Below, one piece after another: positions 2,720 to 25,396 of a stretch of 28,650 bases of DNA. How positions within the stretch are numbered: position 1 is the stretch's first letter; every line of letters begins with the position of its first letter. Source of the DNA: a virus; IMG/VR virus record IMGVR_UViG_3300032323_000132, positions 1 through 28,650 of that record. One strand, written 5' to 3'. Made by a program: the position numbers and the translations under genes. The notes under the pieces were generated by a model. It did not search any database. It saw only the letters and a program-made list of their open reading frames with translations, and had not been told where the DNA came from.

Positions 2720-3664
2720 ATGAGCATAAAAGAAAAATATTCAGTAAAAAGTATAGATAGCTATCTTTGTAAAGATTGGTTATTAAATAAGCACTATGCT
2801 AAAAGACTTTGTAGTATTTCTTATTCTTTTGGATTATATTTAGATAATATTTTAAATGGAGTTATAACTTTTGGAATGCCACCAAGTAGTACATTATCTG
2901 AAAGTATTTGTGGATATAATTTTAAAGAAAATGTTTTAGAATTAAATAGACTTGTTGTCAACGACAATATAGACAAAAATATGTTGTCTTATTTTGTTTC
3001 AAATTCTATTAAAAAATTACCAAATAATAAAATTATAGTTTCTTTTGCTGATGCAAATATGAGTCATAACGGATATATTTATCAAGCAACTAATTTTATT
3101 TATACAGGTTTAACTTCTAATACTACTAAATTAATAGATAAATTTGGAGATGAATTTCATTTTAGAAATATTGGGCACTATCAAAAAAATAATAAAATAA
3201 ATGCAAAATTAATAAAAAGAAGATTAAACGAAGATAAAATTGATAAAGTTGAAATTGCTACATATTTAAAAAAAAATAAAGGACTTTGGACTTCTAAAAA
3301 ATTAGATTTAGAATTTGGATATAAAGATACAGCAGCTCACTGGTTTAGATTAGATGATGGTTTTAGTTTTCCAGATATAGACGATTGGAATAGATTAAAA
3401 ATATTATTAAATTTAGATAATACATTTGATGATATAATGTGTAGTTTTGAGTTAGTTCCTTGTTCTAAAGATATAATTAAAAAACTGGAATTGACAAAAG
3501 TTGAAATTTTACCAAAGCATAGATATATTTATTTTAAAGGAAGTAAAACTTTTAAAGATAAATGTAATAAAAATTTAAAACTTAAGATACAGCCATATCC
3601 AAAAGGAGAAAATAAAAGATATGATGCAAGTTATCAGCCAACTATTCAAGCAGAATTATTCTAA
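2720..3664 (+). CDS. Mom-like DNA modification protein with C-terminal accessory domain
   Basis: The first 150 or so residues of this 314-residue protein resemble Mu Mom, a GNAT-fold enzyme that converts adenine to N6-carbamoylmethyladenine and so protects phage DNA from restriction. Seen: an early HY (residues 25-26), GVITFG (47-52), LELNRLVV (73-80), and the hallmark SFADANMSHNGYIYQATNF (108-126) followed by YTG. The C-terminal half carries DTAAHWFRLDDGFSFP followed by DDWNRLK, a motif I associate with phage DNA methylases, and ends with YPKGENKRYD. This region may bind DNA or set specificity; that is inference. Mu Mom is about 240 residues, so the extra domain is real added length. The T- and A-rich codon use is even stronger than in its neighbours. 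Confidence 0.72.
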   Translation: MSIKEKYSVKSIDSYLCKDWLLNKHYAKRLCSISYSFGLYLDNILNGVITFGMPPSSTLSESICGYNFKENVLELNRLVVNDNIDKNMLSYFVSNSIKKLPNNKIIVSFADANMSHNGYIYQATNFIYTGLTSNTTKLIDKFGDEFHFRNIGHYQKNNKINAKLIKRRLNEDKIDKVEIATYLKKNKGLWTSKKLDLEFGYKDTAAHWFRLDDGFSFPDIDDWNRLKILLNLDNTFDDIMCSFELVPCSKDIIKKLELTKVEILPKHRYIYFKGSKTFKDKCNKNLKLKIQPYPKGENKRYDASYQPTIQAELF

Positions 3665-10253: not shown

Positions 10254-10453
10254 CACCAAAAGAAAAAGCAGAAGAATTATTTTATAAAATGGCTTATAAT
10301 AGTTCTGAAGAAGACCATAATTGTAGTCATTATGTTGCAATAAATTGCTCGTTAATAGCAGTAGATGCAATTTTAAATGTTGCAAAAGAAATAGCAACAA
10401 AAGAAAGTATTGATTATTGGCAAGAAGTTAAACAAGAAATAGAAAATATATGA
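10250..10453 (+). CDS. Small conserved Bacteroidetes-phage protein
   Basis: A 67-residue protein of a type often met in Flavobacterium phages: MTPKEKAEELFYKM, then INCSLIAVDAILNVAKE, and YWQEVKQEIENI at the end. The A-V-D-x-I and Y-W-Q-E-V-K-Q-E-I blocks are the recognisable part. Length and helical pattern are usual for the family, which has no function known to me. It overlaps both neighbours at ATGA and looks co-translated with them. Confidence 0.62.
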   Translation: MTPKEKAEELFYKMAYNSSEEDHNCSHYVAINCSLIAVDAILNVAKEIATKESIDYWQEVKQEIENI

Positions 10454-11615: not shown

Positions 11616-12782
11616 ATGGAATTTATAGTAACTACTGCGTTAAAGAAGTTATTGCGCCTTAAAAAGCGTATTAAGGTTGTTAGAGGTGGAACGTCTGCCT
11701 CTAAGACCTTTTCTATTTTACCTATATTAATAGATAGAGCAATTAAGACACCTAATTTAGAAATAAGTGTTGTATCTGAATCTATACCACATTTGCGTAG
11801 AGGAGCATTAAAAGACTTTTTAAAAATTATGATGGCACTAGGGAGATATAACGATAATCAATTTAATAAGTCTACTTTGAAATATACTTTTGGCAATGGT
11901 AGTTATATTGAGTTCTTTTCTGTAGACCAACCTGATAAATTACGTGGAGCAAGAAGAAACGTATTATACGTTAATGAGTGCAACAATGTAGATTTTGATT
12001 CTTATTACCAATTAGCTATTCGTACTTCAGGTGAGATATGGTTAGACTATAATCCTTCAAGTTTGTTTTGGGTTGATAGGGAGATAATAAATCAAGAAGA
12101 TGTAGATTTTATCACATTAACTTATTTAGACAATGAGGCACTACCTGAAACGATTGTAAAAGAAATTGAATCAGCAAAAGAAAAAGCAAAGACTTCTACA
12201 TATTGGGCAAATTGGTGGCAAGTATATGGACTTGGTCAAACAGGTTCTTTAGAAGGCGTATGTATTCCTGATTGGCAGGAGATTAATTTACCTAATGAAG
12301 CAAGGTTATTGTGTTATGGTTTAGATTGGGGATATAGTAATGACCCAACAAGTTTAATAGCTATGTACAAATACAATGACAGTTATATCTTTGATGAATT
12401 AATATACCAAAAAGGATTGCTTAATTCTGATATAAGTGACTTGCTAAAAACAAATAGTGTACAAGATATAATCTATGCTGATAGTGCAGAGCCAAAATCA
12501 ATAGCTGAGTTGAATAGTTATGGTCACAATGTGTTACCAGTTAGTAAAGGTAGAGATAGTATCGTATATGGTCTTAATTTAATTAATCAGAATAAGGTTT
12601 ATGTTACATCAAGAAGTAAGAATCTAATCAATGAATTAAGAAACTACATTTGGATGACTGACAAACAAGGTAACAAATTAAACAAACCAATAGATGCTTA
12701 TAATCACGCTATAGATGCAATGCGTTATGCTATAACATCACAATTAGAAAATCCAAATAAAGGAACTTATTACGTTTATTAA
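11616..12782 (+). CDS. terL: Terminase large subunit
   Basis: A 388-residue packaging motor of the PBSX/phage type. Seen in order: Walker A GGTSASKT (residues 24-31), Walker B VLYVNE (116-121), a coupling-type WLDYNPS (142-148), then the RNase H-like nuclease with acids at D237 (YGLDWGYSND), D289 (IIYADSAEPKS) and D367 (AYNHAIDAMRYA). The first half pumps DNA into the head; the second cuts concatemers. The length is normal for the group. It is separated from terS by 9 bases. The portal gene, its direct partner, lies more than 10 kb downstream, which is unusual. Confidence 0.93.
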   Translation: MEFIVTTALKKLLRLKKRIKVVRGGTSASKTFSILPILIDRAIKTPNLEISVVSESIPHLRRGALKDFLKIMMALGRYNDNQFNKSTLKYTFGNGSYIEFFSVDQPDKLRGARRNVLYVNECNNVDFDSYYQLAIRTSGEIWLDYNPSSLFWVDREIINQEDVDFITLTYLDNEALPETIVKEIESAKEKAKTSTYWANWWQVYGLGQTGSLEGVCIPDWQEINLPNEARLLCYGLDWGYSNDPTSLIAMYKYNDSYIFDELIYQKGLLNSDISDLLKTNSVQDIIYADSAEPKSIAELNSYGHNVLPVSKGRDSIVYGLNLINQNKVYVTSRSKNLINELRNYIWMTDKQGNKLNKPIDAYNHAIDAMRYAITSQLENPNKGTYYVY

Positions 12783-13357: not shown

Positions 13358-14035
13358 ATGAAAATAGAATTAACAATACCAACTTCTTTAAGTGAAATAA
13401 AACTAGCACAGTATCAAAAGTTTTTATCTATACTTAAAGAGAATGAAGAATCAGAATTTTTGCAACAAAAGATGGTGCAGATATTTTGTGGTATAGATTT
13501 AAAAGATGTAGCACAAATTAGATATAAAGATGTAGCTGAAATTAATGTAAGTATTAATAATCTATTTACGCAAGATAATAAGTTCATACAAAGATTTAAA
13601 ATGGGTGGTGTAGAGTTTGGTTTTATACCTAACCTTGATGAGATGACTACTGGAGAGTATATGGATTTAGATGCTTATATAACTGATTGGGATACGATGC
13701 ATAATGCAATGGCTGTATTATACAGACCAATAACTAATAAGCTAGGAAACAAATATCAAATAGAAGAATATAAAGGTTCTATAACGTATGCTGATGTAAT
13801 GCGACACGCACCTTTAGATGTTGTTCTTGGTGCTATGGTTTTTTTTTACAATTTAGGGAACGACTTATTAAGCAGTACGATAAACTATTTGGAGAAGAAT
13901 CAGGAGGTACAGAATATTCTGAACAAGCACAATTCGGAAAACGGTGGGGATGGTATTCAAGTATCTATGCTCTTGCTCAAGGAGACGTTAGAAGATTTGA
14001 TGAAGTTTGCAAGTTACCAATACACCAAAGTTTAA
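13358..14035 (+). CDS. Tail assembly chaperone (frame-0 product)
   Basis: A 225-residue protein with the profile of Bacteroidetes-phage tail assembly chaperones, which coat the tape measure during tail building (analogues of lambda gpG). Seen: IPTSLSEIKLAQYQKFLSIL, a central FKMGGVEFGFIPNLDEMT, then MAVLYRPITNKLGNKYQI, and a C-terminal NGGDGIQVSMLLLKETLEDL. In this family the early stop yields the short form, and a -1 shift yields the long form. A run of nine T lies at 13839-13847 within codons for V-F-F-Y (see the frameshift entries). It lies after the repeat block with no good promoter visible. The position far from the tape measure is not typical. Confidence 0.65.
   Translation: MKIELTIPTSLSEIKLAQYQKFLSILKENEESEFLQQKMVQIFCGIDLKDVAQIRYKDVAEINVSINNLFTQDNKFIQRFKMGGVEFGFIPNLDEMTTGEYMDLDAYITDWDTMHNAMAVLYRPITNKLGNKYQIEEYKGSITYADVMRHAPLDVVLGAMVFFYNLGNDLLSSTINYLEKNQEVQNILNKHNSENGGDGIQVSMLLLKETLEDLMKFASYQYTKV
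13840..13846 (+). other. Candidate -1 programmed ribosomal frameshift site
   Basis: The heptamer T TTT TTT (13840-13846, in codons GTT TTT TTT TAC) fits the X XXY YYZ slippery pattern. After slipping back one base, translation continues to 14100. The nine-T run could also allow transcriptional slippage. No strong stem-loop was found just downstream. Confidence 0.68.
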
Positions 14036-14100
14036 CTTTTCTAACATTTGAAAAAGAAAAGACAGCTATAGAAATGAAATTAATAAATAAACGTAGTTAA
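13846..14100 (+). CDS. Frameshift extension of the tail assembly chaperone (gpGT-like)
   Basis: In the -1 frame relative to the preceding gene, 84 codons are open from the slippery site to a TAA at 14098-14100. The open stretch begins after a stop at 13792-13794 and has no ATG until about 14074, so it can hardly be made alone. The peptide is clearly protein-like: EYSEQAQFGKRWGWYSSIYA, then LAQGDVRRFDEV and LTFLTFEKEKTAIEMKLINK. The fused product would have about 247 residues (163 plus 84). By analogy with lambda gpG-T, the extension would link the chaperone coat to the tail tube subunit. The pattern W-G-W-Y and FDEV-x-K-L-P resembles small reading frames I associate with Bacteroidetes phages. 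Confidence 0.7.
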   Translation, partial: LQFRERLIKQYDKLFGEESGGTEYSEQAQFGKRWGWYSSIYALAQGDVRRFDEVCKLPIHQSLTFLTFEKEKTAIEMKLINKRS

Positions 14101-18190: not shown

Positions 18191-18339
18191 TAAAAGAAAT
18201 ATTAAATCTGTTAATGCTTGAAAACCATTACGGACAAAGTGAAACAATAGAAATAGCAAAAGGTAAATATGAATTACCAAGTAGTTGGAATAAAGGATTA
18301 AATCAAATTAAAAGACTTATTAAATGGCAAAGACAGTAG
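18187..18339 (+). CDS. Hypothetical 50-residue protein before the tape measure
   Basis: A short gene starting at an ATGA overlap with the tail protein and ending on TAG 16 bases inside the tape-measure gene. The product reads MIKEILNLLMLENHYGQSET, then IEIAKGKYELPSSWNKGL and a basic end (KRLIKWQRQ). It may assist tape-measure folding or tail start, but no family is recognised. Overlaps on both sides and the protein-like content support it. Confidence 0.55.
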   Translation: MIKEILNLLMLENHYGQSETIEIAKGKYELPSSWNKGLNQIKRLIKWQRQ

Positions 18340-19904
18340 AAGTAGATTTACAAGTAAATAACAATCTTGAACCAACTATAAAAAACTTAAGAGAATTAAA
18401 AAAGCAGTTAAGAGAAACTGCGGCAGGTTCTAGAGAGTTTGATAGATTAAGTGCTAGTATTCGTGATATGGAAGATTCTATATCTGATGCTAAAGCTACC
18501 AATGATGACTTTTTAGGTCAATTAGAAAACGCTTCTGGTCCATTAGGTGCGTTAGGACAAGGTATTCGTGGTGCAGAAAGAACATTCTCAAGTTTTAATG
18601 GTGCTTTAAAAGCTTCTATTATTGGTGCTATAGTTGCTTTAGTAGCAGGATTAGCTGCTGCGTTTAGTAATAATGAAAAAGCACAAAAGAAATTACAGCC
18701 ATTAATGCAAGCATTTGAGAAAATACTTGGTGGTGTATTTGCAGTTGTAGAGCCATTATTTGATGTATTTATAGATTTAGCTACAAAAGCTTTACCTTAT
18801 GTTAGTGATGCATTTAAAGTAGTTTATTCAAGTGTTACAGCAGTATTCCAATCTATAGGTAAATTAGGCTCAGCAGTTGGTAAATTAATATCAGGTGATT
18901 TTAGTGGTGCTTGGGAAGATGCTAAAGGCGCTGTTACTGGATTTAGTAAAAACTTTGATGCTGCTAAAAACAGATACGACAAAGGTTCTAAAGAAATGAC
19001 TGCTTTAGAAAAAGAAAACGCTGCTAAAAGAGCAGAAGCATTAGAAAAAGAGAATGAGCGTAAAAAAGCAGCAGCAGATAAAACAGAAAGTGAAGCTGCT
19101 GAAAGAAGACAAAAAGAAAAAGAAGCAGAAGAAAAAGCTTTAGAAGAAAGAAAGAAAAGAAGACAAGAAGAAATTGATTTTCAAATTGCTTTAGATAATA
19201 TAGGTAGAGAAAGAAGGGTAAATGAAGCTTTAGAAAAAGAAGCTGCTGATGCAAAAGTTTTATCTGATGCAACTGCTATGGTAGATGCTTTAGAAGCTGA
19301 AGACCAAAGAAGATTAGATAATGAAAAGAAAGTTAGTGAAGATTCTATTAAAAACGCACAAGCTGAAGCTGAAGCTAAAAGAAATATAAATAATTTAGCA
19401 ATTCAATCTGCACAAGGTTTAGTTAGTATATTAGCTTCTTTAGGTGAAAAGAATAAAGGTATTCAAAGAGCAGCTTTATTAGCAAATAGTGCATTATCTA
19501 TTGCTGAAATTATAAATAATACAAACGTTGGTGCTGCTAAAGAGGTTGCTACAAAAGGTATTCTTGGTTTAGGAACTTCTACAGTTTTATATGCTAAAAT
19601 GGCAATAAGTATAGGTTCTGTTCTTGCTGCTACTGCCAAAGGGTTAAGAGGATTAGGTGGTGGTTCTGCAGGTTCTGCTGGAGCTGCTGCAAGTGCAGGT
19701 AATCGTGGTGGTACTGAAAGTGCAAGTCAAACACCTGCCTCTGTATCACCTACATTTAACGTGGTAGGAACTTCAGGACAAAATCAAATAGCACAAACAT
19801 TAGGCAACCAAAGACCTGTTAGAGCATTTGTAGTGTCAAATGATGTATCTACTGCACAAGCTTTAGATAGAAATATAGTTAAGACTGCTACTTTAGGCAA
19901 TTAA
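18324..19904 (+). CDS. Tape measure protein
   Basis: A 526-residue protein with the features of a tail length ruler. Seen: a helical N-terminus (LRELKKQLRETAAGSREFDR), a hydrophobic segment IIGAIVALVAGLAAAF near residues 94-109 that may cross or insert in the host membrane, a charged coiled coil at about residues 230-345 (AAADKTESEAAERRQKEKEA), and an Ala/Gly-rich, flexible stretch near 440-480. No lysozyme or peptidase domain is seen. By the usual rule of about 0.15 nm per residue the tail would be near 80 nm, a siphovirus of modest length. The preceding genes are tail proteins, and the next is a head protease. Confidence 0.8.
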   Translation: MAKTVEVDLQVNNNLEPTIKNLRELKKQLRETAAGSREFDRLSASIRDMEDSISDAKATNDDFLGQLENASGPLGALGQGIRGAERTFSSFNGALKASIIGAIVALVAGLAAAFSNNEKAQKKLQPLMQAFEKILGGVFAVVEPLFDVFIDLATKALPYVSDAFKVVYSSVTAVFQSIGKLGSAVGKLISGDFSGAWEDAKGAVTGFSKNFDAAKNRYDKGSKEMTALEKENAAKRAEALEKENERKKAAADKTESEAAERRQKEKEAEEKALEERKKRRQEEIDFQIALDNIGRERRVNEALEKEAADAKVLSDATAMVDALEAEDQRRLDNEKKVSEDSIKNAQAEAEAKRNINNLAIQSAQGLVSILASLGEKNKGIQRAALLANSALSIAEIINNTNVGAAKEVATKGILGLGTSTVLYAKMAISIGSVLAATAKGLRGLGGGSAGSAGAAASAGNRGGTESASQTPASVSPTFNVVGTSGQNQIAQTLGNQRPVRAFVVSNDVSTAQALDRNIVKTATLGN

Positions 19905-19942: not shown

Positions 19943-20845
19943 ATGAGAATAGTAGAATTAATTATAGACGAAAAAGAAGATTTAGCAGGTGTTGAAGCTA
20001 TCTCTGTTGTAGAATTCCCTGCAATAGAAGAAAACTTTATAGCACTAAATCAGCAATTACAATTAGCTAAAGTAGATGATGAAAAGCGTATCTTAATGGG
20101 TGCTGCTTTAGTTCCAAATAAAAACATTTACAGAAGAAATGGTGATGACGAGTATTACATTTTCTTTTCAAAAGATACAGTAAGAAAAGCAAGTGAATTA
20201 TTCTTAATGAATAGCAACCAAAACAATGCTACATTAGAACACGAAAGTAAATTACAAGATTTGTCTGTAGTTGAATCTTGGATAGTAGAAGATGAAGAAA
20301 TGGATAAGTCTAAAAAGTATGGTTTAAACGCTACCGTTGGAACTTGGATGGTTAGTATGAAAGTAAACAATGATACTATTTGGAATGACTTTGTAAAAAC
20401 AGGAAAAGTAAAAGGTTTTTCTATAGAGGGAATGTTTGCTGACAAATTAGAAATGAGTTTGCAAAAAGAAAAAGAGCAAGAATTAATTGATAAGATAAAA
20501 GAAATTATCTTAAACAACGAAAAAAAAAAGATTAGTTTAGAAAGTTATAGCGACTATCCTGATGCAGTTAGTAATAATGCAAAAAGAGGAATTGAACTAA
20601 ACGAAAAAAATGGTAATAAATGTGCTACACAAGTTGGTAAAGTTAGAGCGCAACAATTAGCAAACAAAGAACCAATTAGTGAGGAAACTATTAAACGTAT
20701 GTTTTCCTACTTAAGTAGAGCAAAAGAATATTACAATGAAAACGACAAAGAAGCTTGTGGTACAATAAGTTATTTGTTATGGGGTGGTGATTCTGCTTTA
20801 AGTTGGTCTGAACGTAAATTAGAACAAATAAAAAATGATAAATAA
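19943..20845 (+). CDS. XkdF-like prohead protease with C-terminal fused domain
   Basis: A 300-residue protein in two parts. The first 170 residues look like the XkdF/S78 type of prohead protease that trims scaffold and capsid: AISVVEFPAIEENFI, NATLEHESKL with His 100, and VKGFSIEGMF with Ser 160, a matching pair for catalysis. The last 100 residues form a separate domain: SDYPDAVSNNAKRGIELNEK, then CATQVGKVRAQQLANKEPIS and CGTISYLLWGGDSALSWSER. I have seen that domain attached to other phage head proteins, but not with a known role. The gene lies after the tape measure and before scaffold and capsid genes. Confidence 0.7.
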   Translation: MRIVELIIDEKEDLAGVEAISVVEFPAIEENFIALNQQLQLAKVDDEKRILMGAALVPNKNIYRRNGDDEYYIFFSKDTVRKASELFLMNSNQNNATLEHESKLQDLSVVESWIVEDEEMDKSKKYGLNATVGTWMVSMKVNNDTIWNDFVKTGKVKGFSIEGMFADKLEMSLQKEKEQELIDKIKEIILNNEKKKISLESYSDYPDAVSNNAKRGIELNEKNGNKCATQVGKVRAQQLANKEPISEETIKRMFSYLSRAKEYYNENDKEACGTISYLLWGGDSALSWSERKLEQIKNDK

Positions 20846-22716: not shown

Positions 22717-23244
22717 ATGGCTTGTGAAATCGCTTTAGGTAGAACGGAAAAATGTAAAGACACTACAGGTGGTCTTAAAGCAGTTTACTTTGTGAACTGG
22801 GGAGATATGACAGGAGTTACTTATGACGTTACTAATACAGATGCTATTAGTGCAGTTGCAGGTACTCCAAGTGCATACAAATATGAATTGAAAGGTAATA
22901 GTTCATTTGAACAAACTATCACTTCTTCAAGAGAAAATGGAACTACATTCTTTGAGCAAACTTTAAATTTAACTTTAAAGAAATTGTCTATTGTAGACCA
23001 CAAACAAATTAAATTACTTTCTTATGGTAGACCACAAGTTGTAGTTGAAGATAACAACGGAAACTTATTCCTATGTGGTTTAGAACACGGAATGGAAGTA
23101 TCAGGTGGAACTATTGTAACGGGTGCTGCTATGGGAGATTTAAGTGGATATACATTAGTATTAACAGGACAGGAGCAAGTTCCTGCAAACTTCTTGACTA
23201 CTACTTTAACTTCTGCTGGATTTACTGTAGTATCAGGTTCATAA
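22717..23244 (+). CDS. Putative major tail protein
   Basis: A 175-residue beta-rich protein that I associate with the major tail (tube) proteins of Bacteroidetes phages: IALGRTEKCKDTTGGLKAVY, then FVNWGDMTGVTYDVTNTD, YELKGNSSFEQTITSSRENG, QVVVEDNNGNLFLCGLEHGM, and GTAMGDLSGYTL-like GAAMGDLSGYTLVLTGQE. The strands and conserved G-D-L-S-G-Y-T-L fit a tail-tube fold, which the sequence alone cannot prove. It is placed between strong terminators, with no promoter I can name, and shares the high-expression codon choice of the capsid gene. It would stack around the tape measure. Confidence 0.68.
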   Translation: MACEIALGRTEKCKDTTGGLKAVYFVNWGDMTGVTYDVTNTDAISAVAGTPSAYKYELKGNSSFEQTITSSRENGTTFFEQTLNLTLKKLSIVDHKQIKLLSYGRPQVVVEDNNGNLFLCGLEHGMEVSGGTIVTGAAMGDLSGYTLVLTGQEQVPANFLTTTLTSAGFTVVSGS

Positions 23245-23269: not shown

Positions 23270-23296
23270 GGGTGACTTCGGTTACCCTTTTTTTTT
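23270..23296 (+). terminator. Terminator with UUCG tetraloop
   Basis: GGGTGAC (23270-23276) pairs with GTTACCC (23281-23287), one G-U pair, around the very stable C(TTCG)G loop, and nine T follow (23288-23296). Confidence 0.9.
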
Positions 23297-23343: not shown

Positions 23344-23673
23344 ATGATTATTTTAAGAGAGCAAGGAACTGCACAAACTTTAAAGTTCATACCAAGAAGT
23401 TATGGAGCAGATACCATAGTATTAAGAAATGAAACTACGAATGAAGTACAAACTATTTCAGCAACGTTTGTTTTAGATTCTTATTACTTATCTACTTCTA
23501 AAATATTTGATTTAAAAGAGAATACATTTTACAATCTAACTATTAAAAATGGTGTTGAGGTTGTATATAAAGATAAAGTTTTCTGTACAAATCAAGTATT
23601 AAAAGATTACACAGTAAACAAGGATGAATATGTAGCAAACACTACAAACAATGATTTTATAATTTATGAGTAA
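23344..23673 (+). CDS. Small beta-rich virion protein
   Basis: A 109-residue protein with repeated strands: MIILREQGTAQTLKFIPRSY, then TIVLRNETTNEVQTISATFV, KIFDLKENTFYNLTIKNG, and DYTVNKDEYVANTTNNDFII. No enzyme motif. This type is found near portal and tail genes in Bacteroidetes phages and is probably a small decoration or tail protein. It follows a terminator and overlaps the portal gene by 8 bases, so the pair is co-transcribed. Confidence 0.55.
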   Translation: MIILREQGTAQTLKFIPRSYGADTIVLRNETTNEVQTISATFVLDSYYLSTSKIFDLKENTFYNLTIKNGVEVVYKDKVFCTNQVLKDYTVNKDEYVANTTNNDFIIYE

Positions 23674-25396
23674 TATATCAATCGTTCAATTATCGGCTTA
23701 TACAAGTCCTGTAATTAAAGAAAGTAAAAAGGCAGATTATATTGAGTATGGCGTAGATAATAACTACTTTCAATACTTAATAGATAGATACTTGTATTCT
23801 GCGACAAACAACGCTATTATTACTGGTGTTACTAATATGATTTATGGTAAAGGTTTAGATGCTTTAGATTCTAACAAAAAGCCAAATGAGTATGCACAAA
23901 TGCGTAGTATTATTAAAGGTGACTGCCTTAAGAAAGTAGCTTTAGAAAGAAAGATGCTTGGAATGGCTGCTATGCAAGTAATAAAAGAAAAAGGAAAGGT
24001 TAAAAAGATTGACCATTTTCCAATGAGTACATTAAGAGCAGAAAAATGCAATGATAAAGGAGAAATTGAAGCTTGGTATTATTACCCTGATTGGACTAAA
24101 AAGAAACCTTCTGAAGAAGCTAAACGTATTCCTGCATTCGGATTCGGAAATGGTAATGAAGTTGAGATGTATGTGGTACATCCTTATGTTAGTGGATTTC
24201 ACTATTACACTCCTATTGATTATTCAGGTGCTTTACCATATGCTAAATTAGAAGAAGAAATAAGTGATTACTTAATCAATGATGTTCAAAACGGATTTAG
24301 TGGTACTAAAGTAATTAACTTTAATAATGGTGTACCTTCTGAAGAAATGCGTGACAAAATTAAACGTGATGTGTTAGGTAAATTAACAGGTTCACGTGGT
24401 GAAAAAGTAATTGTAGCATTTAATGCTAATGCAGAAAGTAAAACTACAGTTGAAGATATACCATTAAACGATGCACCTGCTCATTATGATTATTTATCAA
24501 AAGAATGTTTTGAAAAGTTAATTGTAGGTCATAGAGTAACATCTCCAATGCTTTTAGGAATTAGAGATACAGGTGGTGGTTTAAGCAACAATGCAGATGA
24601 AATTGAAACTGCTACTTTATTATTTGACAACATAGTAATTAAACCATACCAACTTGAATTAATTGCTGCTATTGATGAGATTTTAGCAGTAAATGATATT
24701 AGCTTAAAATTATACTTTAAGACTATACAACCTTTAGAATTTGTAGGTGTAAATGAAATGGATGCTGAAACAAAAGAAGAAGAAACAGGTATTAAAATGA
24801 GTTCTCATTTAGATAATATTGATTTAGATTCTTTTGGTGAAGAAATTGATTTAAATGAATGGGAATTAATAGATAGTAGACAAGTTGATTATGAAGAAGA
24901 AGAAAAATTAGATGCTGAATTAAAAGCATTAAATAATCCTAAAAAATCATTATTGTCTAAAATTTGGCATTTTGTAAGTACTGGAGTTGCTAATCCTAAT
25001 GCCCGTTCTGAACAAGATGGTGAATTGTTTAAATCAAGATATAGATATAGTGGTGAGGTTGGTGCAAATAGTCGTCCCTTTTGTGTTAAAATGCTTTCAG
25101 CTAATAAACTATATAGAAAAGAAGATATAATGCGTATGAGTCAATCTGAGGTGAACAAGGGATGGGGACCTGAAGGTGCAGATAATTACGATGTATTTTT
25201 ATATAAAGGTGGTGGTGCTTGTCATCATTTTTGGACTAGAGAAACTTATAGAAAAAGACAAGATGTTAATAGTCCTTTAGCTACACAAATATCACCTGCT
25301 ACGGCAAGAAAAGAAGGCGAAATATTGCCAAAAGACAATCCATTAGTATATGAAAAACCAATAAATATGCCTAATCAAGGATTTTTACCTAAATAA
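23666..25396 (+). CDS. Portal protein with C-terminal fused domain
   Basis: A 576-residue portal. The core (about residues 1-410) has the usual start with SKKADYIEYGVDNNYFQYLI, ATNNAIITGVTNMIYGKGLD, a central QNGFSGTKVINFNNG, and SPMLLGIRDTGGGLSNNADE, the conserved stretch before the long helix. The portal forms the DNA channel at one head vertex. A linker of acidic residues (ELDAELK-like EEEEKLDAELKALNN) leads to a second domain, about 440-545: SRPFCVKMLSANKLYRKEDI, then VNKGWGPEGADNYDVFLYKG and GGACHHFWTRETYRKRQDVN. This domain has Cys and His residues and is unexplained. The place after the capsid gene is unusual. Confidence 0.8.
   Translation: MSNISIVQLSAYTSPVIKESKKADYIEYGVDNNYFQYLIDRYLYSATNNAIITGVTNMIYGKGLDALDSNKKPNEYAQMRSIIKGDCLKKVALERKMLGMAAMQVIKEKGKVKKIDHFPMSTLRAEKCNDKGEIEAWYYYPDWTKKKPSEEAKRIPAFGFGNGNEVEMYVVHPYVSGFHYYTPIDYSGALPYAKLEEEISDYLINDVQNGFSGTKVINFNNGVPSEEMRDKIKRDVLGKLTGSRGEKVIVAFNANAESKTTVEDIPLNDAPAHYDYLSKECFEKLIVGHRVTSPMLLGIRDTGGGLSNNADEIETATLLFDNIVIKPYQLELIAAIDEILAVNDISLKLYFKTIQPLEFVGVNEMDAETKEEETGIKMSSHLDNIDLDSFGEEIDLNEWELIDSRQVDYEEEEKLDAELKALNNPKKSLLSKIWHFVSTGVANPNARSEQDGELFKSRYRYSGEVGANSRPFCVKMLSANKLYRKEDIMRMSQSEVNKGWGPEGADNYDVFLYKGGGACHHFWTRETYRKRQDVNSPLATQISPATARKEGEILPKDNPLVYEKPINMPNQGFLPK

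Follow-up and report, generated by a model that had tools for sequence, protein, structure and literature searches.

How can a phage gene be given two different ends over the same bases, and is the choice between them made by the polymerase or by the ribosome? This question is raised by a gene on the plus strand of an IMG/VR virus record, at 13358-14035 of the window, the name used here for the whole stretch of 28,650 bases (G+C 29.5%) that was analysed. Our main reading is that the gene branches at a run of nine Ts, that its -1 product arises by RNA-polymerase slippage, and that its products are chaperone-like, a statement which, taken whole and with the polymerase step included, is given a probability of about 0.57.

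Two reading frames behind a run of nine Ts

In frame 0 the gene encodes 225 amino acids, made up of a common N-domain (residues 1-163) and a frame-0 C-terminus that closes at the stop codon 14033-14035. The T9 tract lies at 13839-13847 on the plus strand and is read in frame 0 as GTT TTT TTT TAC (V F F Y), with the heptamer T TTT TTT at 13840-13846. A slip of one base back opens 84 further codons on the same strand (13846-14100, with TAA at 14098-14100), and residues 1-163 joined to this extension make a product of 247 amino acids. The -1 frame is already open from 13795 and meets its first ATG only at 14074; no ORF of 60 or more amino acids starting with ATG, GTG or TTG is listed in it there. 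Of all out-of-frame openings on the plus strand in the 15 genes of the window that were checked, it is the longest, with 80 codons inside the gene. The earlier note had read the tract, its heptamer, the 84 codons and the late ATG in just this manner, and all of them hold. The +1 frame is closed just past the run by a TAG (13854-13856, plus strand), where a transcript one T short would end. This stop was considered as a conserved design feature and then dropped as evidence, since it is missing in many loci of a second branch of the family.

By AlphaFold2, the slip point lies inside a helix spanning residues 153-180, which the frame-0 model extends at fair confidence, its final residues being weak, while the -1 domain is predicted to be all-helical (pLDDT 76). 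Five single-chain viral proteins (A0A516L611, A0A516L5A8, A0A6J5N0W0, A0A6J5N3F3, and A0A6J7XA66) are matched by both models, some of them weakly, which supports the presence of the two halves in one polypeptide.

Conservation of the run and of both ends

The site, both of its open frames, their conservation and the limits on run length can be read directly from the relatives. The -1 peptide, which had been described as strikingly protein-like, has 525 relatives among the viral stretches examined, and a profile search made with it finds relatives in at least 595 IMG/VR stretches: judging by this breadth, it is real, far beyond chance. Its alignment core reads F-R ... W-G-W-Y. The N-domain search gives a relative set of its own, and the family loci reach down to about 30% N-domain identity. 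Relatives lie in contigs of Bacteroidota MAGs (Winogradskyella, Flavobacterium, and Psychroflexus), in keeping with the Bacteroidetes-type phage that had been proposed. A divergent branch at about 30% N-domain identity (L447-L456) carries T9 and a rather different -1 domain, ending in ...VYQWWHVIEEM... and not in WGWY.

The run itself counts nine Ts in 245 and ten Ts in 105 of the 350 distinct loci, and seven or eight in none. Among the first 92 distinct loci T9 is the only run length, and the offset is -1 and gapless except in two damaged contigs; farther out in the family the run is T9 or T10. The T run, the -1 offset and the shift point are preserved in every intact relative, with T TTT TTT in frame 0. 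The exceptions are all cut or damaged contigs: L269 is cut, L130 is without the site, L080 has an indel, and L404 and L444 are truncated. In L080 (the first 150 bases of contig IMGVR_UViG_3300046363_000007), the indel follows T9 and shifts frame 0 onto the -1 domain at the contig end; most likely this is an error, but it may be a natural fusion. A large part of the T10 loci was drawn by a DNA pattern demanding a non-T after six Ts, a sampling that biases the apparent upper run limit and leaves unbiased the lower limit and the codon contrasts given below, which concern other positions. Loci selected by protein alone still have only nine or ten Ts, and an upper limit of ten is weakly indicated. 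The phenylalanine of codon 4 (29 TTC, 0 TTT) was also taken up as evidence for a ten-T ceiling, and has been largely withdrawn, most of these loci coming from the pattern that called for a non-T at this very position.

An isolated phage offers a named example. Nonlabens phages P12024L and P12024S carry a homologue (genes 40 and 41), and in P12024L (L141 6001-6695, record positions 23946-24640) T9 is followed by ATCATTTAGGGAACGACTT and then by a -1 domain like the window's. P12024L shares with the window gene the T9 and the homologous -1 domain, and differs in its shorter frame-0 tail (28 residues, from the codon before the Phe pair). It was reached via the N-domain, the -1 peptide itself having no match in the annotated phage collection. 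Its published annotation gives two hypothetical genes, 40 and 41, the latter from an ATG inside the -1 domain; these should be one recoded gene. As had been foreseen, standard gene calling thus misses the -1 extension, and does so across hundreds of viral contigs.

This annotation, together with the error-prone sequencing of homopolymers, is what could be said for two separate genes or a sequencing error, with no recoding at all. Such an explanation is highly improbable in view of the 350 distinct loci that have the T9-T10 run and -1 offset, drawn from numerous metagenomes and one isolated phage, and of the constraint on both frames. It also sits badly with the start codons: no ATG, GTG or TTG occurs in the first 25 -1 codons after the run in 245 of 278 loci, and an ATG is found within 25 codons in only two. 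None of the contrary outcomes named beforehand was met with: the -1 peptide has homologues, the run is conserved, and relatives are without an ATG-started extension. This conservation argues strongly that programmed -1 recoding occurs, which we consider almost certain.

Is the frame-0 end then a real C-terminus, or is frame 0 past the run merely left open, encoding no functional peptide? Of 66 non-redundant near relatives, 63 keep frame 0 free of stops through 61 codons, as compared to about 0.9% (0.009) expected when synonymous -1 codons are randomised. Its stops concentrate at two positions, -1 codon 56 (122 loci) and 62 (117 loci), which account for most of 273 loci. The third positions of the -1 frame are the second positions of frame 0, and near relatives change them in 15 of 555 cases in the first 60 bases (13848-13908, plus strand, the dual-coded stretch under the strongest synonymous constraint) versus 71 of 456 past the frame-0 stop; upstream, third positions change in 899 of 4286. 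In a wider set of 104 pairs, the rates at two- and fourfold sites are 0.056 and 0.074 over the first 20 codons versus 0.147 and 0.211 past the stop, so that synonymous change in the -1 frame is about threefold lower directly past the run and recovers once frame 0 has ended. What favours a tail without function is its length, which differs by branch (about 26, 40, 57, and 65 codons, the second branch having the shorter ones of about 26 or 40), the low confidence of its last two helices, and the fact that some of its conserved residues (G197 and G199) are dictated by the -1 frame through its WGW codons. Since frame-0 length varies between branches, it is a lineage trait. A tail without function is unlikely, and by these comparative data the frame-0 end is real: two C-termini are encoded over the same bases, as the earlier note had supposed, and the check for selection in both frames across relatives that it proposed finds constraint in each.

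Slippage by polymerase or by ribosome

Within the main reading, a run of at least nine Ts would allow a one-base realignment of the rU:dA hybrid, with the added U moving translation into the -1 frame. Normal reading would give the frame-0 protein of 225 amino acids, and a fraction of events the longer one, with its common first 163 residues and its 84-residue -1 domain. The slippage, its level and its polymerase basis are what we infer here, and the evidence for a polymerase step lies in the length of the run. Any T9 contains an in-frame T TTT TTT, so the register cannot decide between polymerase and ribosome; length can.

The run reaches at least nine Ts across several codon settings: NTT TTT TTT TAN, N[ACG]T TTT TTT TTR, and TTT TTT TTT GTT. 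Where one T follows the Phe pair, the preceding codon is NTT in 174 of 174 loci; where two follow, it is something else (AGT, TCT, GCT, or AAT) in 10 of 103 (Fisher 3.8e-5; 0.014 on 73 clusters). Likewise the next aligned codon begins with T in 174 of 174 loci where a T is needed, and in 86 of 103 where it is not (2e-8; 0.0014 on clusters). Both contrasts thus hold up, if with weaker p values, at the coarsest clustering used. On a FastTree phylogeny, the exceptions in the class with two Ts after have at least three origins for the preceding codon and at least nine for the next. The second Phe is never TTC, neither in 278 loci nor in 73 clusters, while 21-23% of upstream Phe codons are. In the commonest arrangement a TTC there would be silent in frame 0, and silent in -1 too where the codon is TTA or TTG; the slippery heptamer would also survive the change, as T TTT TTC. 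A run of nine or more in every register, compensating codons and a final heptamer base (Z) that is never C fit selection on homopolymer length. It is this conservation of length (9-10), and not the heptamer alone, that points moderately to transcriptional slippage. The RNA:DNA hybrid is about 9 bp long, and a homopolymer of such length can realign without mismatch, which would explain a nine-T threshold. Transcriptional realignment has been associated with T runs over 8 nt (PMC3711429), and as runs grow longer the number of inserted bases increases exponentially (PMC5574713).

The same heptamer is what a ribosome would need, and it is correctly framed in every intact locus. With programmed -1 ribosomal frameshifting of the lambda G/GT kind, two Phe-tRNAs would slip back together at T TTT TTT, and the flanking Ts would be kept for coding or for higher slipperiness. 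The tail-chaperone frameshifts described to date take place on the ribosome (PMC5009743), and two chaperone genes of another family, tested experimentally, gave 6-7% (PMC3711429); a search of open-access papers turned up none that deals with transcriptional slippage in tail chaperones. Several observations also tell against the polymerase: the Ts at either end of the run are fixed in part by hydrophobic codons of the two frames, clustering makes the contrasts weaker, the independent changes are few (3 and 9), T9 elsewhere in the family loci is only mildly rarer than under a simple model (27 vs 37.5), and ribosomal slippage is always possible too at any T9. A ribosomal slip alone, however, needs neither nine Ts, nor a T-initial next codon, nor T over C at Z. 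No stimulator structure, a common though not obligatory companion of such frameshifts, was found either: downstream, RNAalifold returns an energy of 0 and fold z-scores are near 0 versus shuffles (models without pseudoknots), in agreement with the absence of clear structure already remarked. An upstream stem-loop that could stimulate slippage was searched for, and none was found. A ribosomal frameshift is a serious possibility, if a somewhat doubtful one; slippage of the RNA polymerase, as in mxiE, is favoured over it, by a little.

A probable tail-assembly chaperone and its counterparts

What would such a gene be for? It lies on the same strand as, and between, the genes for the terminase large subunit (11616-12782, plus strand) and the tape measure protein (18324-19904, plus strand; phrog_1535 and phrog_1538), the latter about 4.3 kb downstream and not adjacent. 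Unknown genes, tape measure, protease, and portal follow it on that strand. The N-domain matches PHROG 32199, a PHROG of unknown function; searches in Pfam, PHROGs, PDB sequences, and PDB folds brought up neither a known chaperone family nor an informative solved structure; among the named fold hits the best is one chaperone in BFVD, weak at E 0.30. The name of tail assembly chaperone given to the gene beforehand thus finds no backing in Pfam, PHROGs or PDB, and stands by its two-ended recoded architecture, position and size, from which this identity is probable. On the lambda model, the common N-domain would be expected to bind the tape measure protein, leaving the -1 domain to bring in tail tube subunits. 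A weak N-domain fold match in Flavobacterium phage 6H was set aside, since T9 is lacking at that position and the relation between the frames is unclear. Close to its end the match (L458 ~10340-10420, minus strand) apparently switches frame with no T9 present, possibly through recoding of another kind or a sequencing error.

A known counterpart is the gpG/gpGT frameshift in the tail assembly chaperone of lambda (PMC5009743, citing Xu, Hendrix and Duda). Shared are a tail-region gene upstream of the tape measure and a -1 recoding that links a common N-domain to a second domain. Lambda has a GGGAAAG-type site, the window family T9-T10; in lambda frame 0 ends soon after the slip, whereas in the family it continues for 26-65 codons. 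Unlike lambda, the window gene has two products similar in length (225 and 247 amino acids), and its family has no detectable chaperone sequence or fold match and a step that may be transcriptional. On comparative grounds the site is a real, deeply conserved programmed -1 recoding site of the G/GT type. This much of the lambda logic first proposed is kept, while a run length of 9-10 points moderately away from its ribosomal step.

Another counterpart is Shigella mxiE, for which transcriptional slippage was shown by experiment (PMC1088944): there too two overlapping ORFs are connected at a U run of the mRNA, through the insertion of one non-templated nucleotide, in a bacterial regulator gene and not in a phage structural-assembly gene. 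In dnaX, Thermus thermophilus uses transcriptional slippage on A9 and E. coli ribosomal frameshifting for the same purpose (PMC1088944). Thermus dnaX shares with the window gene a nine-base homopolymer that sets the ratio of products with a common N-terminus, and differs in its A run and in that slippage gives the shorter product. In the textbook case tail chaperones are recoded by a ribosomal frameshift. What is conserved here appears to be the length of the homopolymer, and therefore the same outcome may, as in dnaX, have evolved via the polymerase, the homopolymer being a slip site that may work during transcription. We rate at even odds a wider reading, in which a large family of Bacteroidota siphophages would set the ratio of tail-chaperone isoforms by polymerase slippage on a length-limited T9-T10, giving the -1 fusion, the frame-0 form with a dual-coded C-terminus of its own and possibly a +1-truncated N-domain. 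Such a system would be the equivalent, in transcription, of lambda's ribosomal G/GT frameshift. The family also provides abundant natural material for the study of dual coding and of how long a run must be before slippage can be used.

Other long runs occur in the window. Nine-base runs are found as A9 at 3268, 10209, and 11060 and as T9 at 23288, three of the four in genes and one between the genes 22717-23244 and 23344-23673. A runs of nine or more are about fivefold rarer in the family loci than a simple model expects. A ten-A run stands at 20520-20529, just past the protease domain and inside the predicted prohead protease gene (19943-20845, Peptidase_S78_2), and is a possible second slippage site.
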